Position numbers and translations under genes: made by a program. Below the pieces are notes generated by a model. That model searched no databases and was not told the DNA's origin. It saw only the letters and a program-made list of their open reading frames with translations. From contig NZ_FNEO01000001.1 in NCBI RefSeq assembly GCF_900100165.1, positions 372,001 through 436,000 on the forward strand: a DNA stretch of 64,000 nt, given 5' to 3'. Origin of the DNA: Flavobacterium glycines (GTDB lineage: Bacteria; Bacteroidota; Bacteroidia; Flavobacteriales; Flavobacteriaceae). Positions 16,028-60,187 of the stretch are shown in pieces (position 1 is the stretch's first letter; each line of letters opens with the position of its first letter).

Positions 16028-16079
16028 AGTTATTATTTAAAATTATTAATTGGTTAACAAAGCCATTCCAAACGAATGC

Positions 16080-17093: not shown

Positions 17094-17145
17094 AATTTTT
17101 TGTTTTTTAGTTCTACCAGAAATATTGTAAACATTCTTTTTTTTA

Positions 17146-17213
17146 AACCATTAAGTGAATTAAGAAAGTTAAGCACACTGTAAATATTAATTTTCTTAAA
17201 TGCCTAAATGGTT
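17146..17213 (-). repeat. Long imperfect hairpin between galT and galE
   Basis: Two nested arm pairs: AACCATTAAG (17146-17155) with CTAAATGGTT (17204-17213), and TTAAGAAAGTTAA (17160-17172) with TTAATTTTCTTAA (17187-17199), around a 14-nt loop. No U-run follows on the minus strand, so it is not a standard terminator; RNA processing or partial attenuation is possible. Confidence 0.5.
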
Positions 17214-17269
17214 AGAATATTTAGTTTTTCATACAAACCAGTAGAGCTATTTTTTAAATATCAGTTTAG

Positions 17270-18325
17270 TTATTTTTGTTTGTAATGTACCTCAGATAAA
17301 TTTCGCAACATTTCGGCACTTTTCTCCGGTGTAATATCTCTTTGAGATTCTCCCATCATTTCGTAACCAACCATAAATTTTTTCACTGAAGCCGAACGCA
17401 ACAATGGCGGGTAAAAGTGCATGTGAAATTGCCATTCCGGATGGGCTGAACCGTCTGTTGGTGCCTGGTGAATTCCTGAAGAATAAGGGAATGATGTTTC
17501 GAAAAGATTATCATACTTTGTTGTTAGTTTTTTCAAAACCTCAGCAAAAGCAGTTACCTCATCCTCTGTAAAATCAGTGATTTTAGTAATATGACGTTTA
17601 CTGATAATCATGGTTTCAAAAGGCCAGATTGCCCAGAAAGGAACAATGGCAGCAAAATGATGGTTTTCAACCACAACGCGCTCTTTTACTTTTAATTCTT
17701 CATTTAAATAATCCTGCAACAAATTAGTTCCGTTTTTATCAAAATAAGCTTTTAAATTATCCTGTGTTTTTTGAACCTGAGTTGGCAACGAAGACTGAGC
17801 CCAGATTTGTCCGTGTGGATGCGGGTTACTACACCCCATTACACTTCCTTTGTTTTCAAAAATCTGCACGTGATTGATGTAATCAATGTTACCCAAATCA
17901 GTGTATTCTTTTTGCCATGTATGGATAATATTAACAATACCGTCTACATCCATTTCAGGCAACGTCAAATCGTGTCTTGGTGAAAAACAAACCACTCTCG
18001 AAATTCCTCTTTCCGGCTGTGCTTTAAAGAAACTTCCTTCTTCATTTCCTCCAAAATCAATTGGTTCCTGTTTTAAAGCAGCAAAGTCATTTTCGAAAAC
18101 AAAACTGCTTTCGTAAGGCGGATTTACTTCGCCATTAGCGCGAACATTTCCGGCACACAAATAACATTCCGGATCATATTCTGGTAAAGCAACAGTATTT
18201 ACAGCCTCTTTTTGTCCCTGCCATGGTCTTTTTGAACGGTGTGGCGAAACCAAAACCCATTCGTTAATCAAAGGATTATACCTTCTGTGCGGATCTTCAT
18301 TAATATCAAACTTTCTCATGCTCAT
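17270..18325 (-). CDS. galT: Galactose-1-phosphate uridylyltransferase
   Basis: 351-residue HIT-superfamily enzyme. The active-site motif NPHPHGQIWAQSSLP (about residues 168-182) includes the uridylylated His. A CxxC zinc-type pair (CYLC, near residue 55) and the C-terminal HMHFYPPLLR match the family. It transfers UMP between UDP-glucose and galactose-1-phosphate. The start ATG shares one base with the galK stop (TAATG), so the two genes are translationally coupled; a second ATG two codons on is equally usable. Cytoplasmic, middle of the operon. No oddities seen. Confidence 0.96.
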   Translation of the reverse strand: MSMRKFDINEDPHRRYNPLINEWVLVSPHRSKRPWQGQKEAVNTVALPEYDPECYLCAGNVRANGEVNPPYESSFVFENDFAALKQEPIDFGGNEEGSFFKAQPERGISRVVCFSPRHDLTLPEMDVDGIVNIIHTWQKEYTDLGNIDYINHVQIFENKGSVMGCSNPHPHGQIWAQSSLPTQVQKTQDNLKAYFDKNGTNLLQDYLNEELKVKERVVVENHHFAAIVPFWAIWPFETMIISKRHITKITDFTEDEVTAFAEVLKKLTTKYDNLFETSFPYSSGIHQAPTDGSAHPEWQFHMHFYPPLLRSASVKKFMVGYEMMGESQRDITPEKSAEMLRNLSEVHYKQK

Positions 18326-19491
18326 TATTTAGTGTATAGTGATGTTCCGTTACTTACTTTCACGTCGTAAATTTTCAATTCGATTCCGAAAGCTTCGGTA
18401 TATAATTTTGAGAATTTATCTTTAATTTCCTGTTCGTGTCCTTTTTTAACTAAGTTGATGGTACAACCTCCAAAACCACCTCCCATTAATCGGGAACCGA
18501 TAACTGCTGCTTCTTCTTTGGCTAAATCAACTAATAAATCCAACTCTTCACAACTTACCTCGTAGTCTTTAGACAAACCATCGTGAGTAGCAAACATCAA
18601 TTCGCCCAAGAATTCAATTTTTCCGTTATCCAAAGCCTCACAAGCCTGAATCACACGGTTGATTTCTTTTACCACAAAAAGAGAACGTCTATAAACGTCA
18701 TGACTCATTTTGTCTTTCAAGTCAATAATGGTTTGCTCGGTACAATCTCTAAAACTTTTTATTTCAGGAAAATTCGCTTTTACAATAGCAATTCCTTCTT
18801 CACATTGCTGTCTTCTTTCGTTGTAAGCCGAAGTCATTAGCGAATGTTTCACATTTGAATCAAACAAAATCAACGAATAATCAGCAAAGTTGGCATCGTG
18901 ATACGTATATTCTAAAGTACGGCAATCAATCTTGATCACTTTGTCTTCCTGTCCCATAACGCTAGAAAACTGATCCATAATTCCGCATTTGATTCCCACC
19001 CAATGTTCTGATTTTTGACCTAACAAAGCAATATCAATAGGTTTGATATTCAAATTAAACAAATCGTTCATCCCGAATAAGAAACCACATTCTAAAGCCG
19101 CCGATGAAGACAATCCGGAACCAACAGGAATATTACTGCTAAACACACAGTTTACCCCTTCAAACTGGAATCCGTTAATTTTTAATTGATTGATAATTCC
19201 TCTGATGTAGTTCGTCCATTCGTTTTTATCCAAACTTACCTCAGCCGTAACATCAATTTCAAACTCGTCATTCAGGTCTAAAGCTACTACTCTGGAAGTA
19301 TTGGTATTGTTTTTTGCAAAAGCAAAGCAAATAATCTTATCGATAGCCGCGGGCAAAACATAACCGTCGTTATAATCAATATGTTCTCCAATAATATTAA
19401 TCCTTCCCGGAGAAAGCACTATTTTATCTGGCTCATTACCAAAGATTTCTTTAAAAGAAGCCGCCGTTTTGTTAATTAAAATATCATTCAT
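18325..19491 (-). CDS. galK: Galactokinase
   Basis: 388-residue GHMP kinase. It shows the galactokinase signature PGRINIIGEHIDYNDGYVLP near residues 28-47, the ATP-binding GHMP loop PVGSGLSSSAALE near 120-132, and the third motif MGGGFGGCTINLV near 340-352. It phosphorylates galactose at C1, the first committed Leloir step. It overlaps galT by one base and follows galM by 46 bp. Cytoplasmic, with a normal length. N-acetylgalactosamine kinase is unlikely, given the operon. Confidence 0.96.
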   Translation of the reverse strand: MNDILINKTAASFKEIFGNEPDKIVLSPGRINIIGEHIDYNDGYVLPAAIDKIICFAFAKNNTNTSRVVALDLNDEFEIDVTAEVSLDKNEWTNYIRGIINQLKINGFQFEGVNCVFSSNIPVGSGLSSSAALECGFLFGMNDLFNLNIKPIDIALLGQKSEHWVGIKCGIMDQFSSVMGQEDKVIKIDCRTLEYTYHDANFADYSLILFDSNVKHSLMTSAYNERRQQCEEGIAIVKANFPEIKSFRDCTEQTIIDLKDKMSHDVYRRSLFVVKEINRVIQACEALDNGKIEFLGELMFATHDGLSKDYEVSCEELDLLVDLAKEEAAVIGSRLMGGGFGGCTINLVKKGHEQEIKDKFSKLYTEAFGIELKIYDVKVSNGTSLYTK

Positions 19492-19537
19492 TAGTTAAAA
19501 ATTGGTATAGTGTTACTATTATTTTGATAAAACCTCA

Positions 19538-20557
19538 TTACAGAGCTTCAAATTTATAAGTAGTTTTTTGAGTGTAAATATCTCCTTTTTTCAAAACCGA
19601 ACTTGGAAAATTAGCATGATTTGGAGCGTCAGGGAAATTTTGAGTTTCAAAACAAATTCCGCTTAAAGCATGATAGCTTGCATTTTCTTTTCCTTTTAAA
19701 TCAGGACCACAATTTCCGCCCACATAAATATGAACTCCCGGCTGATCGGTATAAACGTCCATTTTTAAATTCGTTTTTGGACTAAACAGCGTCGCTTTCA
19801 CTTCGTCATTGTTTTCAACTACAAAAGTGTTATCGATATTTTGAGGACATTTTTTAGCTGTTCGATAATCAAAAAACGTATTAGCTACTTCCAGAATATT
19901 CCCAGTTGGAATACAATCTTCTCTGGTTTCTACCACTTTTTGAGCGTGTACTACTAAATCCTGATTCGAAACATCTGATTGATGTCCGTCCAAATTGAAA
20001 TAACTGTGATGTGTTAAATTGATGATAGTATCTTCAGTAGTAGTTGCTTTGTATTCCAAAATCAATTCGTTTTCTTCTGATAAAGTATAAGTCAGACTTA
20101 CCGAAAGCTCACCCGGATAATTTTCTTCGTTAGCAGTACTAACATAACTCAAAGTAATTGATGGATTTTCACCGGTTGTTACTGCATCTACATTCCAGAT
20201 TTTTTGACTAAAGTTGTCAATTCCTCCGTGTAAAGAATTAACGCCATTGTTAATTGCTAATTGATACGTTTTTCCGTTTAGTTCAAATTTCCCTTCACTA
20301 ATTCTACCTGCATAACGCCCTACAGTAGCTCCCAAATAAGGTTTACCTTCTAATTGAAATGATTTTTCATAGCCTTCAACAGTATCAAATCCTAAAACTA
20401 CATCAACTAATTCATTATTCTTAGTTGGAATTTTTAATGCAGTTACTGTAGCTCCAAAAGGAATTACACTCAATTTTGCTCCGTTTTTATTAGTTAACTC
20501 ATAAAAACTTGAAACAACAGAATCTAAATGGGATAAATTATTTTCAGATGCAGACAT
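19538..20557 (-). CDS. galM: Aldose 1-epimerase (galactose mutarotase)
   Basis: 339-residue mutarotase. The beta-sandwich fold motifs are GATVGRYAGRISEGKFELNG near residues 73-92, NNGVNSLHGG (~98-107), the catalytic His in THHSYFNLDG (~180) and the catalytic Glu in GICFETQNFPDAPN (~303). It interconverts alpha and beta galactose so that beta-linked galactose released outside can be used by GalK. No signal peptide, so cytoplasmic. It is the first gene of the operon; a TAnnTTTG box lies about 38 bp upstream. Confidence 0.95.
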   Translation of the reverse strand: MSASENNLSHLDSVVSSFYELTNKNGAKLSVIPFGATVTALKIPTKNNELVDVVLGFDTVEGYEKSFQLEGKPYLGATVGRYAGRISEGKFELNGKTYQLAINNGVNSLHGGIDNFSQKIWNVDAVTTGENPSITLSYVSTANEENYPGELSVSLTYTLSEENELILEYKATTTEDTIINLTHHSYFNLDGHQSDVSNQDLVVHAQKVVETREDCIPTGNILEVANTFFDYRTAKKCPQNIDNTFVVENNDEVKATLFSPKTNLKMDVYTDQPGVHIYVGGNCGPDLKGKENASYHALSGICFETQNFPDAPNHANFPSSVLKKGDIYTQKTTYKFEAL

Positions 20558-21687: not shown

Positions 21688-23703
21688 TTATTTAAAATCA
21701 ACCCGTATAATTTTACCACTATTAAATTGAATACTAACGCCTACATCTGTTTGGTTAATACTTCTCACCGGGAGTAATTCTTTATTTTTCCATTTTTCCC
21801 CTGATTTTTTCCAAAGCATCAAAGTAGCATAAGTATTCAATCCTTTATCTTTAGAAGCAGTATTAGCTACAAGATTAATTACAGAACTTTCATTGCTTTC
21901 CGGATGCAAACCTTTTGTATTAACTACTTCTGATTTCCCCCATCCTAATAGAGAAACCATCGCTAATTGGTATTTACCGTTATCAATAATCGTTACCTCG
22001 TGACCTTTTATTTTTCTTTTTTCAACTCGAATTTCCTTATCCAATTTAGGCAAAGCATAATGCCCCAAACGCATAGAAACAACTTTATCTGAATTATTTT
22101 TATCTACTCTCAAAATTCCGTTAGCCAAAGGAATATCGGCCAGACTGAATTTGATATTCTCATCTGTTTCTAAAACCACATCACGGTAATAAACTTCGTT
22201 TTCAAACTTTTTAAAAGTGTACAATCTAAAAGCTTCCCAATTATTTTCTTTGTTTTTTATAACATAATTCATCGCCACTTCCCCATTCGTTCCATCAGCC
22301 TGCCAGGGAAAAGCACTACTGTAAGACAAACGATTATAATTTTCAGTGGAACGGAATTTTTGCCAGTCATTTTTCACCTTTTCGTGGCACCAAGCCCTAA
22401 CTTCAGAAGCGCCAATATTGGGATAATCGGTAATTAAAATATTGGAATCTCCCTGGTATTTATTATAAACCGCATCTTTTTTAAACTTGGTATCCCAATC
22501 ACCATTATTTTCTTTAGCAGTCCAAAAAGGATTGTTATCAGGAACCAATAAAGCCAAAAATGCTTTCCCCATCCAATACACACTGCCTCTGCAGCTATAA
22601 ACCTGAACAGCAGGTTCAAAAGCGCCGTAGAAACCTAGTGTAGGCACCTTATCCTTCATAAAATCAGGATGGGTAAAAAACTGCTTAATTACCCCGGAAG
22701 AAATTCTGCGCATCCAACCATAGTTAGTATTTCCGTCATTTTGAAAACCCATCAAAGGAAAAGGAATAATCGCACCGGTTCTGTAACTGATACTTCTGCC
22801 CCACATAATCATTTCCCCATTTTTACTGAATAAATTAGGATAATTGTATTTCAAGTCGCTAAAATTTTGTTCAAACTGAGCAGCAATCTCCGGATAATGT
22901 ATCTTCCCGAAATACTCTGACCAAATCATCCCGTACATCTGAAAAGCCCACATACTGTAATAATCATAAGCCGGACTATCGTTGTACCAACCATTGCCTC
23001 TATAAGCTTTAAGAGATTTTTGCAAATACTCCAAAAGTAATTTCTCATTGACAACATAGCCTTGTTCTTTGAAAAAACTTAACACAAAAACATTAAAAAA
23101 CTTCCAGTTAGAATCTACAGTTGGACCATCTCCATAGCTGAGCATAGTTTTTGCCAATTTATCTTTTTGTTCCTGCGGTAACGGATTCCACAAAACTTCA
23201 GGATTAGTAAGCATTGAAACAGCCAATGCCCCAAATTCTACTAATTTCTGACTTGCTCCTCCGTTTTTAGAACGCGGCTCAATATAAGAGGCACTGGCAG
23301 GATCAGTCAATTTTGCTATTTGACACCTGTAATAATCGGCTACTTTTATATTATTAATAACCAATTCCGGATTTTCCTTCAATAAAGGCGAAGCGATAAA
23401 CAACGTCCTGCAAAGCCCTTCTAATTTCTCTGTTGAAACCTGTGCTTCATTTACAGGATAACTCTTCCCTTCCTGTTTGGGAAATTTCATCGGATCATCT
23501 AAAGAATGTACGTAACTAAAAGCTCCTTCAAGCAGGTACATCGCCGCATCTTTCCAGTGCTGCTTAGTCATTCCGGTATAAGGACTCAACTTATAATCGG
23601 GATTTACTATTTGAAAAGCCTCATTAGTTGTCGCTTTTTGTTGTGCAAAACAAGTCAGATTGCACGAGATTACTAACAACAAAAATGTTTTTAATTTATT
23701 CAT
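21688..23703 (-). CDS. DUF2264 protein, candidate secreted exo-glycosidase
   Basis: 671-residue protein with a signal peptide (cleavage near CFAQQ, residue 20). The N-terminal ~400 residues are helix-rich with the DUF2264 pattern (WKDAAMYLLEGAFSYVHSLDDP; NNWKFFNVFV-like and DSPAYDYYSMWAFQMYG segments), suggesting an (alpha/alpha) barrel. The rest is beta-rich. From memory, proteins of this type include a beta-glucuronidase acting on arabinogalactan and placed in GH154; that equation needs a database check. It sits 30 bp after the GH2 gene and before the SDR, likely in one transcript. Periplasmic. Family firm, activity inferred. Confidence 0.8.
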   Translation of the reverse strand: MNKLKTFLLLVISCNLTCFAQQKATTNEAFQIVNPDYKLSPYTGMTKQHWKDAAMYLLEGAFSYVHSLDDPMKFPKQEGKSYPVNEAQVSTEKLEGLCRTLFIASPLLKENPELVINNIKVADYYRCQIAKLTDPASASYIEPRSKNGGASQKLVEFGALAVSMLTNPEVLWNPLPQEQKDKLAKTMLSYGDGPTVDSNWKFFNVFVLSFFKEQGYVVNEKLLLEYLQKSLKAYRGNGWYNDSPAYDYYSMWAFQMYGMIWSEYFGKIHYPEIAAQFEQNFSDLKYNYPNLFSKNGEMIMWGRSISYRTGAIIPFPLMGFQNDGNTNYGWMRRISSGVIKQFFTHPDFMKDKVPTLGFYGAFEPAVQVYSCRGSVYWMGKAFLALLVPDNNPFWTAKENNGDWDTKFKKDAVYNKYQGDSNILITDYPNIGASEVRAWCHEKVKNDWQKFRSTENYNRLSYSSAFPWQADGTNGEVAMNYVIKNKENNWEAFRLYTFKKFENEVYYRDVVLETDENIKFSLADIPLANGILRVDKNNSDKVVSMRLGHYALPKLDKEIRVEKRKIKGHEVTIIDNGKYQLAMVSLLGWGKSEVVNTKGLHPESNESSVINLVANTASKDKGLNTYATLMLWKKSGEKWKNKELLPVRSINQTDVGVSIQFNSGKIIRVDFK

Positions 23704-23733: not shown

Positions 23734-26196
23734 CTATTTAACTGATTTAATTTTAATTTTTCCTTTGGTCAAAGCAGGCGAACTAACCTCAATTGCTATT
23801 TCACCCCTATCCTTAGTGCTCTTTACAATAAGCAAAGCTTTTCCTTTCCAGGCTTTTCTTTTATTAGCCATATACAAATCGGTATCTTTTAAATTGGCAT
23901 TATCTACCCCCGCAATCACTCCCGCCCCCGATATTTTAAATGTAAGTTGGTTCTCTGCATTTGGGTCAATATTCCCTTCTTCATCAGTAATATCAACCGC
24001 AATATAAGATAAATCCTGACCATCAGCTGCTATTTCATTTCGGTCAGCAGATAATTTTATTTTAGCTGTCTGTTGAGCCGTTTTTAAGATTGTTGTTTCT
24101 GCTTCCTTATCATTTTCTAATCCAACGGCTTTTAATTCTCCTGCAATATAAGGAATTATAAAAGTGGCTTTAAACTCTTGGCTGAGACCAGTTTCTTTTT
24201 CTCCAATGACTTTGTTATTTAGATACAGCCTTACTTTAGGATATTTCGAGTAGACCTCAACCTCAATATTTTTTCCTTCATGACCGGGCCAGGTCCAGCT
24301 TTCCCAAGTAGGCCAAACTGCCCAGGAAGTCAGTTTAATTTGACCACTTTCAGGATTAGGTTCGCGCACTGCCATATACAATTTCTCAGCATTATTATAC
24401 AGCATGCTTCGGTAATGAGAAATCGGTTTTCGCCATCCTGTTAAATCCACATCGCCACAGTAAGCGCCATGCCAAGGATATAAATTTCCTTCCCAATGTT
24501 CTCCGGCTGGTTCTCCAGGGTAGACGTAACGCCCAATACCAGATTCGCCCAAATAATCCATGGCTGTCCACACAAAATCACCAATAATGTAATTGTGTTT
24601 TTGAACCAAATTCCAATTAGCGAAAGCATCCTTAGGATAGGATTCTGTTTGTACAATAACACGAGAAGGCACTCTTGTATGATCCGATTCGGCACGATGC
24701 AATTGATAATTGTAACCCGCTACATCATGAGCTGCCATTAAAGGATCAAATATTTCCCAGTCTTTAGTCCAGGTTGTCATTGCCGATGTTACGGGACGTG
24801 TTGCATCTAAATTACGAACCGCACTGGCTAACATCTTTGCCGTTTCAACCGCTTCCGATTTTGCTCGTTCAATAATTTCATTCCCTATACTCCACATAAT
24901 GATAGACGGATGATTTCTGTCACGCAGAACCATCGATTCTACATCATGTTTCCACCATTTGTCAAAAATACTCGCATAATCATAGATTGTTTTTTTCTCT
25001 TTCCAGCCATCAAAAGCTTCATCAATCACCAACATTCCCAATCGGTCGCAAGCATCTAAAAAAGCTTCCGAAGGCGGATTATGGGAAGTTCTCACCGCAT
25101 TAAAACCTGCTTTTTTCAGCAATTCTACTTTTCTCACTTCGGCACGGTCATAAGCCGCAGCGCCTAAAGCACCGTTATCATGATGTACACAACCTCCGTT
25201 TAGCAATGTCTTTTTACCGTTTAATACAAATCCTTTTTCAGCAGAAAATTCGATAGTTCTGATTCCGAATTGCTTTGTAACAACATCAACTGGCAAATCA
25301 CCATCCTTAATTTTTCCGGCTTTCATGATTTTTATTTCTGCAGTATAAAGATCTGGAGTTTCCGGTGACCACAAAATTGGATTCTCAATTTCTATATTTT
25401 GTACAATTTCTTTTTCTTCACCAGCTTTTAAATCAATCCCAAGACCATTATCAGTACTCATCGAAATAGTTTTAGAACCATTTACTTTTTTAATAGAAAT
25501 CGTTGTTGAAAAAGTCATTGTTTGCAAAGTTTCTGTATCATTTTTCACCATAGTTTTAACCTGAACTGTAGCTTTTTCATTAGTCACTTTTGGAGTCGTT
25601 ATTGCCACTCCCCATTGTTTGATGTGAATTGGATTTCTTACCATCAACCATACATTGCGATAAATCCCGGATCCGCTATACCATCTGCAATTTTTTTGTT
25701 GCGAATTATCCACTTTAACTGCAATGGTATTTTGTTGACCAAATTTTAAATAAGAAGTCAAATCATATTCGAAAGATGTATAGCCATAAGGCTGCATTCC
25801 TACTGATTTTCCATTGACAAAAACCTCAGCATTCATATAAACGCCTTCGAAATAGATAGCTATTTTTTGGTTTTTCCATTCAGCAGGAACCGAAAATGTT
25901 TTTCGGTACCAGGCTGTTCCCATTGGATAAAATCCTCCATCGCCTCCGCTTGGATTATCTTTTTCTGATTTCCCCTCAATACTCCAATCGTGGGGTAAAT
26001 CTAATTCCCTCCAATTCTTATCATCAAAATTCACCGAACTATTCTCAGGCGAATCTCCTAAAGCGAATTTCCAATCGGCATTGAACTTTTGATTTCTTTC
26101 AAATCCAACTTTCTTTTTCGTCTGAGCCGAAACACCATTCACCATTAAGAAACTAAGTAAAAACAAAGACGCTACAAATTGTATCTTTTTCATCAT
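23734..26196 (-). CDS. GH2 glycoside hydrolase (beta-galactosidase-like)
   Basis: About 820 residues from the ATG pair at 26196/26193; the longer frame begins with TTG and gives an unlikely signal peptide, so I prefer MMKKIQFVASLF. Domain order is the sugar-binding jelly roll (~40-190), Ig-like domain, the (beta/alpha)8 barrel with acid/base Glu in MWSIGNE (~residue 440) and nucleophile Glu in VQTESYP (~518), then a DUF4982-like domain (ESWTWPGHEGKNIEVEVYS) and a C-terminal Ig-like domain. Such enzymes are periplasmic beta-galactosidases, and some are beta-glucuronidases; the ESW...EVEVYSK part is typical of Bacteroidota beta-galactosidases. It is the lead gene of GH2-DUF2264-SDR. Confidence 0.9.
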   Translation of the reverse strand: MMKKIQFVASLFLLSFLMVNGVSAQTKKKVGFERNQKFNADWKFALGDSPENSSVNFDDKNWRELDLPHDWSIEGKSEKDNPSGGDGGFYPMGTAWYRKTFSVPAEWKNQKIAIYFEGVYMNAEVFVNGKSVGMQPYGYTSFEYDLTSYLKFGQQNTIAVKVDNSQQKNCRWYSGSGIYRNVWLMVRNPIHIKQWGVAITTPKVTNEKATVQVKTMVKNDTETLQTMTFSTTISIKKVNGSKTISMSTDNGLGIDLKAGEEKEIVQNIEIENPILWSPETPDLYTAEIKIMKAGKIKDGDLPVDVVTKQFGIRTIEFSAEKGFVLNGKKTLLNGGCVHHDNGALGAAAYDRAEVRKVELLKKAGFNAVRTSHNPPSEAFLDACDRLGMLVIDEAFDGWKEKKTIYDYASIFDKWWKHDVESMVLRDRNHPSIIMWSIGNEIIERAKSEAVETAKMLASAVRNLDATRPVTSAMTTWTKDWEIFDPLMAAHDVAGYNYQLHRAESDHTRVPSRVIVQTESYPKDAFANWNLVQKHNYIIGDFVWTAMDYLGESGIGRYVYPGEPAGEHWEGNLYPWHGAYCGDVDLTGWRKPISHYRSMLYNNAEKLYMAVREPNPESGQIKLTSWAVWPTWESWTWPGHEGKNIEVEVYSKYPKVRLYLNNKVIGEKETGLSQEFKATFIIPYIAGELKAVGLENDKEAETTILKTAQQTAKIKLSADRNEIAADGQDLSYIAVDITDEEGNIDPNAENQLTFKISGAGVIAGVDNANLKDTDLYMANKRKAWKGKALLIVKSTKDRGEIAIEVSSPALTKGKIKIKSVK

Positions 26197-26348
26197 TTTT
26201 TTTCTTGTATTTATTTTAATTGGCTTATCTAAAAATATCAAAATTAAAACTATGTAATATATACTATTTCAATAACTGTTTCTAAAAACAGTCCCTAAGA
26301 AAACATCCTACACACCCTCTTTAAACTTGTTAATCAAATAATTAAGAA

Positions 26349-29300
26349 TTACTTTTTAATTATTAATTTTTGATTATTTATTCCTCCATTTGAAACATTC
26401 AATAAATATACTCCCGCCGGCAATGTTCCCATATTAATTTTTGAAACAATATCTGCTGTATTCTTACTTATTATCAATTCTCCTCTCATATTATAAAGCA
26501 TAATGCTTTTATCACTCTGGATTATCCCCGAGTTGATTGTTAATTCATCAGATACTGGATTAGGATAAGCAAAAACTTCTAATTCCTCATTAGAATTCAC
26601 ACCAATTTGGCCATTAAAATAAGATAATGAATAACCAAAAACTTCCTTAGCAATTTTCTCACCAATAAGTCTCCCTGGCATATCATCCTGCGGAGGATGA
26701 ATTCCGCCCCAAATTCTTGACAAACTACATTGATCGGAAGCATCTCTATAAGTAGCCCATTGCAATATCACATCTTCAGATGGTCCTTCTTCAAAAACCA
26801 AAAATTCATTTTTACGAGCTACAAATTCCCCCATCCCTCCCGGAAAATAAGCATCTCCAGTCAATAAAGTCATTACTTCGGCTCCTGCTCTGGAATAAGT
26901 TGAATGCCCTGAAATATATCCGGCAAAAGGAGGCGTGACAAAAGATGGTCTTTGATAAGGCCACCAATTTTCGGCTAAAATCCAGCCCGCACCAGCTACA
27001 TCCGCATTTGGATTTTTAATTTGAGTATGTCCTTTCCAACTGTATAATTTGATCTTACCCAGATTTTCATTATTTGTTCCAATTAATGGATCACCTTCTT
27101 TAACAACCTCAATGAATCCAGGTTCCAATGGAATTCCGGTTATATTATAATTAGGCAAATTAGGATCTGAACTTTGTCCTTTTGAAGCCATATAACGAAT
27201 AGCCGAAATAGGCCGAATATAATCATACCACCCTTTTATTCCCCAAGCTGTTATAGCACAATCGTGCATAGCTCCTCCTAAAACAAAATACGTCTTAATA
27301 TCCCAGTCTAAATCAGTTAAAATATTACCTGTTCCATTAAACCTCTTCTTAAAATACTTACTATCACTTACATAATTCAAAATAGAAAACCAATGCCCCG
27401 GAGGAGTTTCTGAATTTGGACCATCTGCCCAAAATTCGGCTAAAACCCTTGTATAATCACCTCTCAACACTTTTTGTTCTGCATATGGCTGTTTTGTATA
27501 TGGATTAATAAAATATCCTTTCCCGACATCTCCTCCTTGTAATGCATTATAAAAATTAGGATATTCTAAATAATTTTTCGGCAATTTCGAGAAATCAATA
27601 TTACCTAAAGATTTTGGTGAAATATCTATACGAACACCGTCTTTTGGGTCAAGATGCGAAGACCATTTAGCCACCATTGAAAATCCCCATTTATAAACTT
27701 CACTTGATTTTGTATTTTGGGTTAAATTCAAATTTGGAGGCATCCCGGGATCATGATAAACAGTATAAGCATTACCTGATTTTTCAAAAACATGCTTATC
27801 CGATTCATTAAGAGAAAAAGGAAAAACATTTCCCCATTCAGGACTTAAAAAACTTGGTGTGGAACCAGGTATTGAATTTCCATTTTGATCTATAAACGAA
27901 TCAAATTTTAAAGGTTGCCACCTATTTGGATCAATAGAAGAAATAGAATATTCCGCCGGATTCAATAAATTCAGAGGCTGATTTACCGGTTGGTAAAATA
28001 TATTTTTATATTGATTAGCTTCATTAGATCCGTCAACAAGACCATAATCTATAACTGTTTGTGCTATATAATTCCCTAAAGCTGCGGCATCACCATTTGA
28101 ATAATCTACAGAAGTATAAGTAATATCATAACCCAATTTATTCATTAAAGCGTCAAAATTAGCCTGAGCAATTACTTTTCCCGGAGACTTACTAAAACGA
28201 TGAGTCAACAATCGATATGCTGCATAGCTTATCGCTTTTTTTCTTGAATCGGTAACATTTTCAGAAGGCAAAAACCCTTTAAATTCACTTGTAAAACCAT
28301 GAACTTCTTTTCCCAATAAATAGGTTTGGGCTTTATCATCAAAAACTGCCCAAGCATCATACATAGCCATAGATGTATGGAATAAATTTCGGGCATGTAC
28401 TGTTGGCCTTGCAAAATCTTTTCGAATGGCTGCCAACAATGCTTCATTCCAAAGACGGGCTACAGAAAACTTAGTACTTGGATCAACAACTGGGGTAGAA
28501 GACAAATAAACATCTAATGATATTTTTTCACTAGAACACTTATTACTTTTTTCAGTTACCGATACTACACCCCGATTAGTTGTTCCCCAGCGCACTTTAA
28601 TCATTCCACCCGTTCCTCCTTCTACTATTTCACCTCCCGAAACTTCCCAAATAGCAGTTGAAGATGCATCAATAGGATAGGTATAAATTTCCTCACTATT
28701 ATATAAAACATTTATATTTCCTGATAATGTCTTGGATTTCAAAAGAAAACAACTTCCCGAGCTAATAGTTGCATAGGGATTATAATTACAGGAAGTTCTA
28801 TCCATACAACCATGTATTTTCTTAGTTGGCTCAATAGGTAAAATCTTAAAACCAGCTCCCTCTTTGGCCTTGATTATTTTATCTATCTGTACGTTTTGAT
28901 AAGTTTCAACTAATCCGGAAGGCCAGGTTATTTTTAATTCGACAATTTCATTAGCCGAACCAAAACCAAAATGAATCCCCTTTAAACTATGCGAAAGAAA
29001 TCCTGACCCATAATTGTATCTATGAAATTGACCTTTGTTTGTTTTTACTGATACTTTTGCCCCTATAGCATCTCTGTTAGAAACAGTACCTTCTAAATTT
29101 ATTTCCAACCAATGTAAATCGATTCTGGGATTTGTAAAATCAGTCATTTTATTTTCATAAAAAAAGGAAGCTCGATCATTATTGGTAACCAAAACATCCA
29201 AATCACCATCATTATCATAATCAAATACCGCTTGACTCACGCTTATACTGAGCTCTCCTAATTTAGTTTTACCAGAACTATCTTTAAATAAATACTCCCC

Positions 29301-30404
29301 GTTTGATACTAAATTTTCAAAATACTTATTGTTATCCGTAGAAGAGGAACCATACATAAATCCATTGACAACAAATAAATCTTCATCTCCGTCCAAATCA
29401 AAATCAGAAAAATTCACATCCCAGGCCCAGCCGGATTTATTCACTCCAAATTGAGTTGCCTCATTTATAAATTTTCCATTCCCTGTATTTCTAAATAAGG
29501 CATTTTGATCTATAGCAGACACAAAAAAATCGAAAAAACCATCACTATTATAATCTCCAACTGCAATTCCCATATCATCCTGAGCATGATCTAGTCCATA
29601 CAAAATTGCCTGTTCATCAAATCCCTGGCCTTTATCATTAATAAACAAATCATTCTTTTGATTTGTATAATCATTTGCAACATAAAGATCCATCCAGCCA
29701 TCATTATTAAAATCAAAAGGCACACTTTGATAAGACAATTTATTAACGGCGCCTCTAAAAACATTACTTACATCTGAGAAAGTACCGTTCCTGTTATTTT
29801 TATACAATTTATTACTGCAAGTGGTTGACCAAACATTAATATAAATATCCAAAAAACCATCATTGTTATAATCAAACCAAGTTGCACTTGTATTTAAACA
29901 GCCATTATATTTTTGAAATCCGACTTGCTCTGTAACCTCCACAAAAGTTCCGTTTGTTTGATTATGGAAAAGTTGTACTTTCGAAGTGTTTGTTAAAAAC
30001 AAATCAGGAAAACCATCATTATCATAATCTCCCCAAAAAGCTCCATTTTTATATCCTGCTAATCCTGCAAAAGTTTCAGCAGCCTCAGTGGATGGAAATA
30101 AATTAACTAATCCTGAACTATTAGTAATATCAGTAAAAGTACCGTCATTATTGTTTCTAAATAAGCTACTATGACTTGAAGCCACACCATCTTCATCTCT
30201 TGCCTTAGCTACTACAAATACATCTAAATCGTTATCTCCATCAAAATCGGCAACAGCCACACCATTATTTTTTTCTAAACCTCCTAAACCAATTGCTTTT
30301 TCAATTCTATCAAAAGTTTGTGCATTTAGAAAATTCAGATTGATAAAACAACTGTAAATCAGAATAAATAAAGAATATCTAAAGCTTGGCTTATTTGACA
30401 ACAT
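26349..30404 (-). CDS. Secreted FG-GAP/UnbV - vanadium haloperoxidase (PAP2) fusion, T9SS
   Basis: 1351 residues. Signal peptide 1-28; about seven FG-GAP/VCBS-type repeats (DxDxDxxxD loops such as DFDGDNDLD, DYDNDGFPD, DFDLDGDED, DYDNDGDLD) over ~45-415; an ASPIC/UnbV domain ~430-515; a CNYNP Cys module (GCMDRTSCNYNPYA) ~532-552; an Ig/PKD-like stretch to ~635; then a vanadium haloperoxidase domain ~645-1260. The complete phosphatase/haloperoxidase triad is present: KGWYDYIRP (Lys1057, Arg1064), SGHS (1165-1168, His1167) and SRIWGGIHPPQD (Arg1230, His1236, Asp1240). A type A sorting domain (~1278-1351) sends it to the surface or medium. It may be a peroxidase/halogenase or a phosphatase; the choice cannot be read here. 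It sits between GH30 and GH2 genes. Confidence 0.88.
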   Translation of the reverse strand: MLSNKPSFRYSLFILIYSCFINLNFLNAQTFDRIEKAIGLGGLEKNNGVAVADFDGDNDLDVFVVAKARDEDGVASSHSSLFRNNNDGTFTDITNSSGLVNLFPSTEAAETFAGLAGYKNGAFWGDYDNDGFPDLFLTNTSKVQLFHNQTNGTFVEVTEQVGFQKYNGCLNTSATWFDYNNDGFLDIYINVWSTTCSNKLYKNNRNGTFSDVSNVFRGAVNKLSYQSVPFDFNNDGWMDLYVANDYTNQKNDLFINDKGQGFDEQAILYGLDHAQDDMGIAVGDYNSDGFFDFFVSAIDQNALFRNTGNGKFINEATQFGVNKSGWAWDVNFSDFDLDGDEDLFVVNGFMYGSSSTDNNKYFENLVSNGEYLFKDSSGKTKLGELSISVSQAVFDYDNDGDLDVLVTNNDRASFFYENKMTDFTNPRIDLHWLEINLEGTVSNRDAIGAKVSVKTNKGQFHRYNYGSGFLSHSLKGIHFGFGSANEIVELKITWPSGLVETYQNVQIDKIIKAKEGAGFKILPIEPTKKIHGCMDRTSCNYNPYATISSGSCFLLKSKTLSGNINVLYNSEEIYTYPIDASSTAIWEVSGGEIVEGGTGGMIKVRWGTTNRGVVSVTEKSNKCSSEKISLDVYLSSTPVVDPSTKFSVARLWNEALLAAIRKDFARPTVHARNLFHTSMAMYDAWAVFDDKAQTYLLGKEVHGFTSEFKGFLPSENVTDSRKKAISYAAYRLLTHRFSKSPGKVIAQANFDALMNKLGYDITYTSVDYSNGDAAALGNYIAQTVIDYGLVDGSNEANQYKNIFYQPVNQPLNLLNPAEYSISSIDPNRWQPLKFDSFIDQNGNSIPGSTPSFLSPEWGNVFPFSLNESDKHVFEKSGNAYTVYHDPGMPPNLNLTQNTKSSEVYKWGFSMVAKWSSHLDPKDGVRIDISPKSLGNIDFSKLPKNYLEYPNFYNALQGGDVGKGYFINPYTKQPYAEQKVLRGDYTRVLAEFWADGPNSETPPGHWFSILNYVSDSKYFKKRFNGTGNILTDLDWDIKTYFVLGGAMHDCAITAWGIKGWYDYIRPISAIRYMASKGQSSDPNLPNYNITGIPLEPGFIEVVKEGDPLIGTNNENLGKIKLYSWKGHTQIKNPNADVAGAGWILAENWWPYQRPSFVTPPFAGYISGHSTYSRAGAEVMTLLTGDAYFPGGMGEFVARKNEFLVFEEGPSEDVILQWATYRDASDQCSLSRIWGGIHPPQDDMPGRLIGEKIAKEVFGYSLSYFNGQIGVNSNEELEVFAYPNPVSDELTINSGIIQSDKSIMLYNMRGELIISKNTADIVSKINMGTLPAGVYLLNVSNGGINNQKLIIKK

Positions 30405-30505: not shown

Positions 30506-31921
30506 TTAATTGTTAAAAACAAAAGTATTGATTGACTTACCTTTTAGATTTAAAGCTACTTTTTTATCATTTAACTCAAGTAATACAGCTTTACCTTGTT
30601 CGTCCTGATTCATTAGTAACAGAACAACTTCTCCGTTTGGGTTCACAAAAGCTAAATGATCTTTGCCTCCCGAAGTTTCAAGTCTGTAAGCATCTGGCAA
30701 TACATAATGACTCAGATGTTTCATTAAATAATATTCCGGATTATACTTAACCTCTTTTGTCTCTTTGTTAACAGCTATCAACATATTCTGCTTCCATCCC
30801 CAGGTGCTTTTTCCTGTTTCGTCAAGAATCATATTCCAATACATATAGCTACTTGCTCCATTCGCAATATACTGCTGCATTAAAGACCATGTATATTCTG
30901 CCGACTTCCAATTGTTCTCTCCATTACCGCACTCTGATTCGGTTTGCATTATTTTATATCCGGGATATTCTTTGTGCAATGTTGCCACTGTATGTTTAGC
31001 ATCCCACTGAAAGCCGACACCCTTGATGTATTGCGAAGCTTTTTCATCATTTAAAACAGTACGTGTAAAATTGGGATTAGAAGTATTAACCGTTCCTAAC
31101 CATATCTCTGTTTTCAAACCGTCTTTTTGAAATTGTGGTCCTAAAAAATTCCCCACATAATAAGCAATATCTTCAGGACGCCAGGTACAACTTTGCCATT
31201 GTGGCTGATATACCGGTTCGTTTTGTACCTGAACTATTGAAACATCAATCCCTTCTTTAGCATAGGCTTGTACAAATTTTGAAAAATACAAAGCGTATGC
31301 CTGTAAATAACGCTCCTCCATTTTAAAAGCTGTAGCATTATTACGAATAAATTTTCCTTTATTATCAATCGGCATCGCATCATTATATTTTCCCATGGCA
31401 TAATGATTATTTACTTTCATCCAGGCTGGTGGAGTCCATGGTGAAGCCCAAATTTTTAAATTAGGATTCTTAGCCTTTGCCATTTTTATATATGGAATTA
31501 GGATATAACGATCTCTGTCTATATTGAAATTCACCATATCAAAATCTTCGTATACGTCATTATACGAATAATAACTTAGTGAATAATCATTAGACCCCAG
31601 AGGCATTCGGCAGAAATTAAAATTCATACCCTCTTTAGTAAAGAAATCTGTAATTATATTTTGTCTTGTTTTTTCATCCAAACTAAGTAAAGCTTCATAA
31701 CCCATTTCATTAAAACAGGCTCCAAATCCATCCATTTTTTGCACCTTTTTATCAGGATAAATAATAATATCTGCCTTTTCACCTGAATTCTTAAAGCTTA
31801 AATCAGTACCTTTTTTCCATGGTTCTTTTTCAGTAGTATATTTCCATGTTACCTTTTGAGCGTTAACCCCAAAAGTAATGGACAACACACTTAAAAACAT
31901 AAAAAGATTTTTTCCTGTCAT
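30506..31921 (-). CDS. GH30 glycoside hydrolase (GH30_3-like)
   Basis: About 471 residues from the ATG at 31921 (MTGKNLFMFLSVLS, signal peptide ending AQ at 22); an in-frame ATG at 31954 would add 11 residues. A typical GH30 (beta/alpha)8 barrel plus beta-domain: MDGFGACFNEMG (~63-74), WASPWTPPAWMK (~158-169), acid/base Glu235 in VQNEP and nucleophile Glu328 in QTESECG. The closest remembered subfamily is GH30_3 (endo-beta-1,6-glucanases, some glucosyl- or galactosyl-active). In this locus a beta-1,6-linked side chain is the expected target. No sorting domain, so periplasmic. It is 106-139 bp downstream of GH127. Confidence 0.88.
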   Translation of the reverse strand: MTGKNLFMFLSVLSITFGVNAQKVTWKYTTEKEPWKKGTDLSFKNSGEKADIIIYPDKKVQKMDGFGACFNEMGYEALLSLDEKTRQNIITDFFTKEGMNFNFCRMPLGSNDYSLSYYSYNDVYEDFDMVNFNIDRDRYILIPYIKMAKAKNPNLKIWASPWTPPAWMKVNNHYAMGKYNDAMPIDNKGKFIRNNATAFKMEERYLQAYALYFSKFVQAYAKEGIDVSIVQVQNEPVYQPQWQSCTWRPEDIAYYVGNFLGPQFQKDGLKTEIWLGTVNTSNPNFTRTVLNDEKASQYIKGVGFQWDAKHTVATLHKEYPGYKIMQTESECGNGENNWKSAEYTWSLMQQYIANGASSYMYWNMILDETGKSTWGWKQNMLIAVNKETKEVKYNPEYYLMKHLSHYVLPDAYRLETSGGKDHLAFVNPNGEVVLLLMNQDEQGKAVLLELNDKKVALNLKGKSINTFVFNN

Positions 31922-32060
31922 TTTTTTAATCTTTAAAATTATATCAAAATTCATTTTGTAATTTACTATTTGTTTAACTTCTCATTTAACATTCGGTTTC
32001 CATTATTCAGCCATAAAAACAAACTACACTTTTTTAAAAGACAGAAGTTGTTATTATAAA

Positions 32061-34004
32061 TCATTTCGACTCCTTCACCCATACTTTCATTTCCCCAACA
32101 CCTCTGTTAGACCAGGAATAATAAGGTATAAAATTCCATTCTTTTTGTGCATCTTTAGCAATTATCTCATTGATTCCACCCAGCTTATTTGGATTATAGT
32201 TTATTTTGAAACTTTTTGCATCAAAATTCCCATCATAAGAATCCGAATTGTCAATTTTTTCCAAACAATACATCAATGGGCCATACTGTATGGATGTTTT
32301 CCCTTTATCATCTTCTATCAAAGGATTGGCTGTAATATTTCTCACTTCCATCGGTATATTTAAATCAATCTTATCTCCCCTTTGCCAATTTCTGTGAATT
32401 TTGATATAGCCACCCTCAACTTTATAGTCTACCTTCTGATTGTTAACCAATAATTTTACAGAAGTAGCAATTGAATTTTGGTAACCGTAAAGTTCAGAAG
32501 GAAATGCATTGGTAGCCCAGTCCGGAATACGAATTTTCATTGCAAATGTTAACTTTGATTCAGGATTAACGGCAATTTTTACATTCCCGTCAAGCGGATA
32601 ATTAGACGTTTGGGTAAGATTTATATTTGTCTTTCCAAAAGGAATTCTGGCTTCATTAGCAATAAATAAATTAACAAAAATACCTTCTTTGTCTACATCA
32701 TAAATAAGATTGGAAACAGAAGGAAGAAAGCGAATCATATTAGTAGGACAACAAGGACACTCAAACCATCCGGCTCTTGTTAAATTCCCCTGATTAAACT
32801 TATAGACACCATCGGATTCTAATGGATTAGGATAAAAGAAACATTTTCCATCTAATGAAACACCCGATAACAATCCATTATATAAAATACGTTCCAAAAT
32901 ATTATAATACTTTGCTCCACCAAAAAGTCGAAACATACGATCAGCCCACATTACCCCGCCTATGGCAGCACAGGTTTCGTTATAAGCAGTCAGATTAGGC
33001 AACTCATAATTTTTTCCAAATGCCTCTCCGTTATGTTTGGCACCAAGTCCGCCTGTCACATACATTTTTCGGTTTACCATATTATTCCAAATATTTTTTA
33101 TAGTCTTCTTATAGCGTTCATCACCACTTATTGCTGCGACATCCGTAACTCCAGCATAGTAATACACTGCACGAACCGCATGACCCACCGCTTCATCCTG
33201 TTCAAAAAGCGGTTTATAATCCTGCCAGTATTCACCTCTTGGTTTACGATGTTCGGAAGTACCACGTAAATCAACAAATTTTTTAGCCATATCAAAGTAT
33301 TTCTTCTTACCTGTAATTAAATATAATTTAATAAGCCCTGTCTCAATAATTTCGTGTCCCGGTACATCATAATTGTTGGGGTCACTAAAAACCTTAACCA
33401 CTAAATCGGCATTTTTCAAGGCTATATTTAAAAAATTACGCTTGCCCGTAGCATAAAAATGGGTAGCAGCAGCTTCGTATAAATGCCCTGCATTATAAAG
33501 TTCATGACTCATACTCTCATTATCCCAACGTTTCTTACAATCACCCACCCATTTAGCCGGAGGAGCAGCAGGATTTATTGTTCGCCAGGTTGTTAAATAG
33601 CCGTCAGGTTCCTGACCACGTGCTATAATTGAAATGTATTTGTTCAGTAAAGCATCCAACTTAGCATTAGGGGCAGACATCAGTGTCAATGAAGCTCCTT
33701 CTATTATTTTATAAGGATCGGTATCGTCAAAAGGCATTTTCCCATTTACTTTTCCCGTACCACCTTTAATCACTTTTTCTGCGATAAGAAAGTTTTCAAA
33801 AATGCCCGTTTCTTCACATTTTGCAAAAGCAACGGGAATGGTTACTTGCTGTATCTGACGAATTTTCGGCAGCCAAAAATTGTCCGTCAACCGCACATTG
33901 CGCATACCTACTTTTTGTACAGGATATTTTGCGATTTCTAATGATTGCGAGAATGTAGTTAGGCCCGAAAGCATTCCTACTATGATTACAATAATCTTTT
34001 TCAT
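32061..34004 (-). CDS. GH127 beta-L-arabinofuranosidase-like enzyme
   Basis: 647-residue DUF1680/GH127 protein with signal peptide (MKKIIVIIVGMLSGLTTFSQ). An (alpha/alpha)6 barrel with YNETCAAIGGVMW (~Glu and Cys near 345) and WFECPCCPTNMIRF (~425-437) carries the Cys cluster used as zinc ligands and nucleophile in characterised GH127. GHEIIETGLIKLY and EAVGHAVRAVYYY are further family segments. It removes terminal beta-L-arabinofuranose in the known cases; some relatives act on other sugars. Periplasmic. It starts a probable unit with GH30 and lies after the terminator of the metallopeptidase gene. Confidence 0.9.
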   Translation of the reverse strand: MKKIIVIIVGMLSGLTTFSQSLEIAKYPVQKVGMRNVRLTDNFWLPKIRQIQQVTIPVAFAKCEETGIFENFLIAEKVIKGGTGKVNGKMPFDDTDPYKIIEGASLTLMSAPNAKLDALLNKYISIIARGQEPDGYLTTWRTINPAAPPAKWVGDCKKRWDNESMSHELYNAGHLYEAAATHFYATGKRNFLNIALKNADLVVKVFSDPNNYDVPGHEIIETGLIKLYLITGKKKYFDMAKKFVDLRGTSEHRKPRGEYWQDYKPLFEQDEAVGHAVRAVYYYAGVTDVAAISGDERYKKTIKNIWNNMVNRKMYVTGGLGAKHNGEAFGKNYELPNLTAYNETCAAIGGVMWADRMFRLFGGAKYYNILERILYNGLLSGVSLDGKCFFYPNPLESDGVYKFNQGNLTRAGWFECPCCPTNMIRFLPSVSNLIYDVDKEGIFVNLFIANEARIPFGKTNINLTQTSNYPLDGNVKIAVNPESKLTFAMKIRIPDWATNAFPSELYGYQNSIATSVKLLVNNQKVDYKVEGGYIKIHRNWQRGDKIDLNIPMEVRNITANPLIEDDKGKTSIQYGPLMYCLEKIDNSDSYDGNFDAKSFKINYNPNKLGGINEIIAKDAQKEWNFIPYYSWSNRGVGEMKVWVKESK

Positions 34005-34166: not shown

Positions 34167-35366
34167 CTAATTACTTGGCATTCCATCTGTCTTCATACCC
34201 TGTAAAATTAAAGCATTCATCATATAGAGAAAATCACTGCCATCATCCTCCCATGATCCATTAATTCCATAAGGCCAAAAATGAGTATTATCTCCTTTTA
34301 CTACAGCATTAGGATCATTTGTCATCATTTTAAGTATTTCGTTAGCTCTGGTACCATGCCAAGTACCTGCGTACATCAATTCCCAATATTTCGCATGTTG
34401 CCCAACTCCTACTGTATGAGCCATTTCATGCATAGCGGTACCTGCTTTTTGATAGGCTGTATTAGCTCCCATATTAATCCAACCGGCAAAATTAGCATCG
34501 GCTGTAGGGGTTCCCGGTGAATAATTCACCGTAACATTTTTTACTATTGAAGTAAAATTATTGTAATATGTTGTTGCCAAATCAAATGCTGCCTTTATTC
34601 GATTCACAGTTGCAGCATCAGCACCATTTGGGATAAACGTATAGGTAAAATTACCTTTTTTGATAGTGCTTATTACGAATTCTTCACCATACAAAACCTT
34701 CAAAGGTGTAACTGCATATGGTCTGACATAGTACAATGTTTCAGGTGTCAAATTAGAAATACGTTGTTTAAACTTACTCTCCACCGTACTCCTGGCAATT
34801 TTGTTATTCGCAACGGTAGGCTCTTTTACAGTATTATATACCAATCCTATTTCCTGAATAGCTAAATCACCGTGTTCTTTCAACTCTACATCAAAAAATA
34901 AATCTTGTGCACCGGCTACTTTAATTGCTCCTAAAACCAATAATGGCGAAGCTAAGTCTTTAGTTTTAAAACTTATCTGATTACCATAAGCAACCCCTTT
35001 TTTATTTACTGCATAAGCTCTGGCATAATAAACTGTCCCTCCTTCAAGATTTGCAAGTTCTGCTTTGAATTCACCGGTCCCCTTAACAACACTTGCAATA
35101 CTTTTTGAACCCTCATAATTAGGATTAACCATTGTTCCATAACACACTCCTCGTTCTGTAACGCTGGTTCCCCCATTGTTTTCAATTACCCCCCAAACAA
35201 CAGCCTGCTTTGCCGCAATTTCTTCCGCCTCATTTGTTTTTAAAGTTGCTAAACTACCTGTTACATTATCAGGTTCTTCCACCTCTGAGCCATCTGAAGA
35301 ACTTGCAGATGAACAAGACCATACTATAAAAACTAACAACAGTAATACATCAATACTTTTTCTCAT
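34167..35366 (-). CDS. Lipoprotein with FnIII-like domains and putative zinc metallopeptidase domain
   Basis: 399-residue SPII lipoprotein (FIVWSCSSASSS, Cys18). Two FnIII-like domains follow (~35-135 and ~140-235; both contain the ERGVCYG/QEIGLVYN and YYARAYAV/YYVRPYAV repeats). The C-terminal domain (~240-399) has a HEMAHTVGVGQH motif: His313, Glu314, His317, Gly320 and His324. This is HExxHxxGxxxH, one residue longer than the metzincin HExxHxxGxxH. It is the last gene of GH16-GH43-lipoprotein (12 bp after GH43). A surface protease attacking a glycoprotein backbone is a plausible role, not a demonstrated one. The family is not one I can name. Confidence 0.75.
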   Translation of the reverse strand: MRKSIDVLLLLVFIVWSCSSASSSDGSEVEEPDNVTGSLATLKTNEAEEIAAKQAVVWGVIENNGGTSVTERGVCYGTMVNPNYEGSKSIASVVKGTGEFKAELANLEGGTVYYARAYAVNKKGVAYGNQISFKTKDLASPLLVLGAIKVAGAQDLFFDVELKEHGDLAIQEIGLVYNTVKEPTVANNKIARSTVESKFKQRISNLTPETLYYVRPYAVTPLKVLYGEEFVISTIKKGNFTYTFIPNGADAATVNRIKAAFDLATTYYNNFTSIVKNVTVNYSPGTPTADANFAGWINMGANTAYQKAGTAMHEMAHTVGVGQHAKYWELMYAGTWHGTRANEILKMMTNDPNAVVKGDNTHFWPYGINGSWEDDGSDFLYMMNALILQGMKTDGMPSN

Positions 35367-44364: not shown

Positions 44365-44389
44365 AACAATATTTTTTTCTCGTTAAACA

Positions 44390-45586: not shown

Positions 45587-45602
45587 AACTATATATTTTT
45601 AA

Positions 45603-47573: not shown

Positions 47574-47610
47574 GATTATTATTTTTTTATGCCTTTATCA
47601 TATTCACACA

Positions 47611-56958: not shown

Positions 56959-56969
56959 AATATTTAAAT

Positions 56970-58193: not shown

Positions 58194-58204
58194 TTTTATG
58201 ATTA

Positions 58205-60175: not shown

Positions 60176-60187
60176 ACTTTCTATTTT

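Follow-up and report, generated by a model that had tools for sequence, protein, structure and literature searches.

A T9SS-tailed fusion of a CRTAC1-like propeller with a vanadium-haloperoxidase-type domain in Flavobacterium glycines and its partial link to polysaccharide utilization loci

The stretch of DNA analysed here, referred to as the window, comprises 64,000 nucleotides of Flavobacterium glycines (family Flavobacteriaceae; RefSeq assembly GCF_900100165.1, contig NZ_FNEO01000001.1, positions 372,001 to 436,000). A gene on its minus strand encodes a protein of 1351 amino acids (aa) in which a β-propeller and a UnbV domain precede a domain of the vanadium haloperoxidase (VHPO) type and a sorting signal of the type IX secretion system (T9SS). 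On balance we favour the view that this is a vanadium-dependent haloperoxidase, secreted by the T9SS and probably attached to the cell surface, which would form hypohalous acid near the cell, and that it has a general role from which it has repeatedly been recruited into polysaccharide utilization loci (PULs).

The Bacteroidota VHPO of solved structure to which the protein was matched, the iodoperoxidase of Zobellia, is unfused, and the fusion of VHPO, CRTAC1-like propeller and T9SS tail is conserved and common in the family of the window. Surface oxidation of halides may thus be common among these polymer degraders, and would then matter for their survival of algal oxidative bursts and for the cycling of halogens.

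Domain organisation of the fused protein

A sequence-only reading of the window had proposed that propeller, UnbV domain, VHPO domain and T9SS signal are joined in one open reading frame (ORF) at 26349–30404, and searches with Pfam and NCBIfam bore this out exactly. The parts are as follows.

26349–30404, minus strand: whole gene for the 1351-aa fused protein, a single uninterrupted ORF
30321–30404, minus strand: probable signal peptide, residues 1 to about 28, judged by eye from the translation
29115–30320, minus strand: FG-GAP β-propeller of the integrin-alpha/CRTAC1 type with seven Asp-rich loops, residues about 29–430
28872–29069, minus strand: UnbV/ASPIC domain, residues 446–511 (Pfam UnbV_ASPIC, E 1.6e-16)
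28524–28700, minus strand: PKD-like linker domain, residues 569–627 (PKD_6, 21.9 bits, below the cut-off of 25)
26616–28487, minus strand: VHPO domain, residues about 640–1263 (Pfam, profile search, model and fold comparison)
26358–26567, minus strand: T9SS type A C-terminal sorting domain, residues 1280–1349 (Por_Secre_tail, TIGR04183 and fold)

Six stretches of the protein are matched by FG-GAP_3 (E 4.3e-42), and in the VHPO region Pfam reports DUF6851 at residues 678–831 (E 2.7e-12) together with VCPO_2nd (E 8.1e-7). Residues 1280–1349 match Por_Secre_tail with an E value of 2.4e-12 (47.4 bits against a cut-off of 27), the TIGR04183 score of 42.8 against a cut-off of 23 identifies the tail as type A, and the fold of this part resembles the mirolase tail with a Z score of 12.4. 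Such a tail would send the fused protein through the type IX system and so probably bring it to the cell surface.

The catalytic domain

To place the protein among its relatives we used 552 related stretches in GTDB species genomes, the best 80 of which gave 79 loci; counts drawn from these lean towards near relatives. The VHPO alignment consists of the window sequence and 69 of the 79 loci (70 rows). Ten loci (L045, L048, L054, L058, L062, L067, L069, L071, L074 and L078) were left out to limit its size, several of them being near-copies on the tree; the frame of L054 ends early. Three motifs characterise the domain.

27210–27245, minus strand: K(x6)RP motif with W1054, K1057, R1064 and P1065, the Trp standing three residues ahead of the Lys (70 of 70 rows; alignment to 4cit)
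26904–26927, minus strand: SGH motif with F1160, S1165, G1166 and H1167, the Phe standing five residues ahead of the Ser (70 of 70 rows; alignment to 4cit)
26685–26720, minus strand: SR(x5)H(x3)D motif with S1229, R1230, H1236 and D1240, H1236 being the expected vanadate ligand (70 of 70 rows)

The sequences read WGIKGWYDYIRP from residue 1054, FAGYISGH from 1160 and SRIWGGIHPPQD from 1229. All three motifs had been said to be retained, and they are indeed present and in order, with W1054, K1057, R1064, P1065, F1160, S1165, G1166, H1167, R1230, H1236 and D1240 invariant throughout the alignment. The motif patterns occur in all 79 loci; in L035 and L088 the first match to K(x6)RP lies elsewhere in the protein, and the alignment covers both. 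A chance origin of the motifs was rejected, since none of 20000 shuffles of the VHPO domain held the ordered trio.

An AlphaFold model of the VHPO part, built from the 70 aligned sequences, had a mean pLDDT of 88.5. The 14 best entries in the fold comparison all belong to the vanadium haloperoxidase group (Z 20.4–28.4) and each spans the VHPO domain: NapH1 (3w35) at Z 28.4 over 437 residues with a root mean square deviation of 2.9, XhnO11 (9l8x) at 28.2, NapH3 (8cxl) at 27.7, the Zobellia iodoperoxidase (4usz) at 24.9 and the CiCPO entries at 20.4 to 20.9. A clear gap separates these from the next entries, which are T9SS tail domains (12.4 and lower) and algal bromoperoxidases (about 10). A profile search against solved structures (E up to 1) returned five VHPO-type sequences, the other four matches lying at the tail end of the profile. 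In the predicted model the two-bundle VHPO fold is formed over a domain of about 620 residues, and fold and aligned residues together support an intact active site, in agreement with the earlier claim of an intact catalytic domain.

The nearest relatives of known structure differ from the window protein mainly in what surrounds this domain. The NapH1 group (3w35, 9l8x and 8cxl), a group of bacterial vanadium chloroperoxidases, has the highest fold likeness over the whole catalytic domain (Z 27.7–28.4) and is also among its best sequence matches (19–25% identity); unlike the window protein, its chains of 478–531 aa lack propeller, UnbV and T9SS parts. The vanadium iodoperoxidase of Zobellia galactanivorans (4cit/4usz) aligns through W..K(x6)RP, TPPF..YxSGH and SRxxGGIH, whereas its chain of 458 aa is unfused and 21% identical. 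The chloroperoxidase of Curvularia inaequalis (1vnc and 1vni, Z 20.7–20.9) has the two-bundle fold and, by the residue roles ascribed to it, the same ligand pattern, but is fungal, unfused and only 16–17% identical. We take the positions of W1054 and F1160 to be those of W350 and F397 in that enzyme. Closer to hand, three unfused VHPOs of the protein's own family (L032, L056 and L079) have the same catalytic domain at 57–61% identity, within proteins of 731–744 aa that have neither propeller nor UnbV domain. In PMC10427571, iodoperoxidases of Flavobacteria are grouped with chloroperoxidases of Actinobacteria and a second fungal group.

If residue roles are those of the Curvularia enzyme, the vanadate pocket would lie in the C-terminal helix bundle, with His1236 as the ligand, Lys1057, Arg1064, Ser1165, Gly1166 and Arg1230 keeping the vanadate in place, and His1167 acting in acid–base catalysis. 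The vanadate would react with hydrogen peroxide from outside the cell to give peroxovanadate, and this would oxidise halide, setting hypohalous acid free near the cell.

The same pocket might instead bind phosphate and not vanadate, in which case the protein would be a surface phosphatase freeing phosphate from extracellular sugars, phytate or nucleotides. VHPOs and acid phosphatases have vanadate-site motifs in common and CiCPO has phosphatase activity, as stated in PMC4859513, and the title of 3bb0 describes a trapped phosphate intermediate in a vanadium apochloroperoxidase. However, the domain of about 620 residues aligns end to end with two-bundle VHPOs, whereas the acid phosphatase EB-NSAP, according to PMC4859513, consists of one bundle. 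The PAP2 family PF01569 does not report the fused protein at E up to 1, nor is it among the six matches of that family in its own genome; with the two-bundle fold, this led us to reject a plain PAP2 phosphatase. PAP2 phosphatase structures are absent among the 50 fold matches listed, which by itself excludes nothing. L002, a PAP2 protein of 198 aa from this genome and the one small protein of its kind caught by the motif pattern, has Asn and Ser at the places of W1054 and F1160, though this is a single comparison. Taken together a phosphatase seems unlikely, if worth keeping in mind.

A reaction that is independent of vanadate or does not halogenate, carried out on a VHPO fold, appears very improbable. 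Its precedent is NapH3, which is among the closest folds and is titled a catalyst of α-hydroxyketone rearrangement. Against it, every ligand position including the His of SGH is invariant in the aligned rows, and where XhnO11 has SGS the family of the window protein has SGH, as does the Zobellia enzyme. The title of the XhnO11 structure is that of a complex with vanadate.

Several observations weigh against a vanadium-dependent haloperoxidase at the cell surface. Fold alone is no proof of halogenation, NapH3 being by title a rearrangement enzyme and 3bb0 a dephosphorylating apochloroperoxidase, and the halide preference cannot be read from the sequence; PMC13198595, in which 4CIT is the Zobellia enzyme, calls the deciding residues largely unknown. 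Not every VHPO-like protein has the Trp three residues ahead of the Lys. A second VHPO-like gene in the same genome (contig C4:471466-471909; L004 and L008), about 35 kb past the end of the window and with a frame of 539 aa, has all three motifs and a Phe at the place of F1160, with Ile at the position three ahead of the Lys and Trp directly ahead of it. The Pfam scan, which covered 31 genes of the window, revealed no enzyme recognisable as a producer of hydrogen peroxide. Finally, a VHPO domain gene is found in only two of 150 genomes of the window's genus, its own included, so that the fused protein is dispensable there; this patchy spread suggests horizontal gain or loss.

The N-terminal half

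Calcium-binding-like loops had been noted in the propeller, and seven Asp-rich loops of the calcium type can be counted in the N-terminal half. Its alignment draws on 44 of the 63 fused loci described below, namely those with an ATG-started frame of more than 600 aa ahead of the VHPO domain, and an AlphaFold model of residues 29–639 from 45 sequences had a mean pLDDT of 93.5. The best fold match is mouse CRTAC1 (cartilage acidic protein 1, 9etn), whose Z score of 41.4 (452 residues) is far ahead of the 32.3 reached by the entry after it, and the same structure comes first in the profile search (E 4.7e-29). Because fold and profile agree in this, propeller and UnbV can be regarded as a CRTAC1-type module; CRTAC1 has propeller and ASPIC/UnbV in the same order as the window protein, though it is an animal (murine) chain of 586 aa with no VHPO domain. 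Across 38 fused relatives the mean identity to the window protein is 62% for the catalytic half and 50% for the N-terminal half.

The module is most likely a calcium-stabilised one for binding or positioning. Foldseek also returned fungal N-acetylglucosamine-binding lectins of the PVL type (about 1e-8), together with integrins and many other propellers. The lectin matches of the model would fit glycan binding by the propeller, as a compatibility and not a demonstration. Carried further, the propeller might dock on a glycan or matrix and place the haloperoxidase there for an oxidative step in polymer breakdown, hypohalite loosening the wall with peroxide from the host's oxidative burst; in several unrelated PULs this would be a halide-based counterpart to lytic polysaccharide monooxygenases. 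We consider this quite improbable.

The fusion is a conserved variant

The 79 loci come mainly from Flavobacteriaceae and other Bacteroidota, with a few from KSB1 and one from Caldithrix. A long N-terminal part precedes the VHPO domain in 63 of them, counting as fused any locus with more than 300 aa ahead of that domain (L014 is cut by a contig end), and 62 loci have a frame of at least 1250 aa. In a tree of all 79 loci, made by a quick method under LG+G4 and with 23 of its 77 inner branches open, the fused and unfused forms require two changes compared with 14.8 in shuffles, and nearly all fused members fall into one group. In a wider survey of 395 sampled genomes from the window's family, the VHPO domain (E up to 1e-100) was present in 112, and 62 of the 130 matches lie in an open frame of at least 1200 aa. 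Rather than a one-off, the fused form is a conserved variant within a known family of enzymes.

A sole fused row (L040:8351-12151) stands among the unfused group. Judged by eye, its propeller is of the same kind; an independent fusion, an exchange or an error in the tree are candidate explanations. The unfused L072 encodes a 1092-aa ORF with repeated stretches of the DNDCNG type between the VHPO domain and the C-terminal end. Second copies of the VHPO family occur within the same locus in L013 (3-719), L024 (side by side), L070 and L080.

Our literature searches, whose coverage took in few subscription papers, turned up none that mentions haloperoxidase and UnbV together, nor one with vanadium, haloperoxidase, Bacteroidetes and FG-GAP jointly, and further searches listed nothing on the fusion. 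For VHPOs and polysaccharide utilization loci one paper emerged, PMC12188728, in which the sole mention of a haloperoxidase was in the title of a reference.

Partial and repeated association with polysaccharide utilization loci

The sequence-only reading had set the gene among glycosidases, and the window confirms this setting: the fused gene lies in a PUL, co-directional with genes for glycoside hydrolases (GH) of families GH2, GH30, GH127, GH43 and GH16, a DUF2264 protein and two SusC/SusD cassettes. Those placed individually are listed below.

23734–26241, minus strand: GH2 glycosidase, next gene downstream
30506–31954, minus strand: GH30 glycosidase, next gene upstream
32061–34004, minus strand: GH127 family protein
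21688–23703, minus strand: DUF2264 protein, whose homologue is the immediate neighbour of the fused gene in L010, L011 and L024
43090–50841, minus strand: SusC/SusD cassette 1 with DUF4959 and DUF4998 proteins
55708–63457, minus strand: SusC/SusD cassette 2, gene order as in cassette 1

Of the homologues it had been expected that they, too, would be associated with PULs, and this holds in part. Our survey around the loci covered SusC and SusD only, in flanks that measured at most about 8 kb and 10 kb and were short for some loci, so that a locus scored negative is not one devoid of glycan genes: L010, L011 and L024 were scored negative despite their DUF2264 gene, which in L010 and L011 is joined by GH16 or GH2 homologues. 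SusC occurs together with SusD in 15 of the 63 fused loci, five have one of the two and 43 neither; among the 16 unfused loci, two have both and one has one. We could not regard the fused proteins as a PUL family in general, given these 43. Nineteen of the 43 share one conserved non-PUL neighbourhood (including L034, L048, L050, L051, L053 and L055), in which SprT-like, nucleotidyl transferase and DUF389 genes lie downstream of the fused gene, mostly also with ABC/MlaE and phosphodiesterase genes.

Proximity to SusD was compared with chance in 24 of the 112 genomes, chosen and mostly higher-scoring, with rounded genome sizes and uniform placement as the null. Only open frames of at least 1200 aa were used, with the window gene included and a tandem pair counted as one, leaving aside unfused copies and one frame of 900 aa in G429; the observed counts are lower bounds. 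Of 29 fused genes, at least 11 have a SusD gene within 25 kb, where 5.3 are expected (simulated P 0.007), and at least 6 have one within 10 kb, where 2.4 are expected (P 0.028). All of them are in genomes with at least 15 SusD genes, where the counts are at least 11 of 15 (25 kb; 4.4 expected) and at least 6 of 15 (10 kb). On the tree, PUL status, scored as any match to SusC or SusD, changes at least 14 times. The association is real and partial, enriched over chance yet no rule, and recruitment of the fused VHPO into PULs on repeated occasions is the most likely explanation. We regard this link as the most interesting open point of the family, since it raises the testable question of whether a PUL gains from an enzyme that produces an oxidant.

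One answer would be that the protein is a dedicated PUL tool. Hypohalite made at the cell surface would attack a galactose-rich polymer of plants or algae, oxidising its phenolic or protein components or loosening them, and would so aid the glycosidases. The co-directional setting of the window is in its favour, as is the clear enrichment in the SusD-rich genomes. Glycan genes flank the fused gene in all four Flavobacterium loci (the window, L010, L011 and L015), two of which have SusC/SusD, while the neighbour set varies. L015, from Flavobacterium flevense and about 90% identical, has the gene in a related PUL with altered neighbours. In L010 and L011 the DUF2264 gene precedes it and homologues of GH16 or GH2 are near, SusC/SusD being undetected in the flanks. 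On the other hand, the window genes scanned offer no recognised source of peroxide, most fused relatives have neither SusC nor SusD in their flanks, and the enzymes beside PUL-borne members differ, among them a sulfatase, an α-fucosidase, GH88, a rhamnosidase and a DUF4955 protein (BT3328-like, under the cut-off). A dedicated tool is rather unlikely. Oxidative attack on the plant cell wall, as previously suggested, is not supported as the general role, with 43 of the 63 fused loci lacking SusC and SusD in the flanks covered; it could apply to PUL-borne members such as that of the window.

As the fused enzyme is kept in lineages outside PULs, a general surface role is likelier than one tied to a glycan. 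Two observations favour the general role: 19 of the 63 fused members share a neighbourhood that is not a PUL, and the enzymes beside others differ. In such a role a surface haloperoxidase may remove peroxide released by attacked algae or plants and halogenate nearby phenolics, proteins or competitors. PMC9296495 reports that Zobellia vIPO3 is upregulated on Ascophyllum compared with alginate, and its authors hold the detoxification of reactive oxygen species to be an important part of the degradation of macroalgae.

Other features of the window

Beyond the PUL, positions 14342–20557 hold genes for an SSF symporter, an epimerase, galT, galK and an aldose 1-epimerase. Because galK, galT and epimerase genes are nearby, the galactose metabolism genes beside the PUL point to a galactose-rich glycan. 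Naming the target was given up, as GH30, GH127 and a 399-aa ORF at 34167–35366 match NCBIfam equivalogs only far below the cut-off. The DUF2264 protein we presume to be GH154. A scan for promoters and terminators was uninformative (80 promoter-like sites against 71.3 in shuffles).

The two cassettes at 43090–50841 and 55708–63457, sharing DUF4959 and DUF4998 partners and gene order, are probably a duplicated cassette. The 399-aa PUL protein belongs to no Pfam family, and its match to an NCBIfam arabinanase model is weak and far under the cut-off; it has homologues in L010 and L015.

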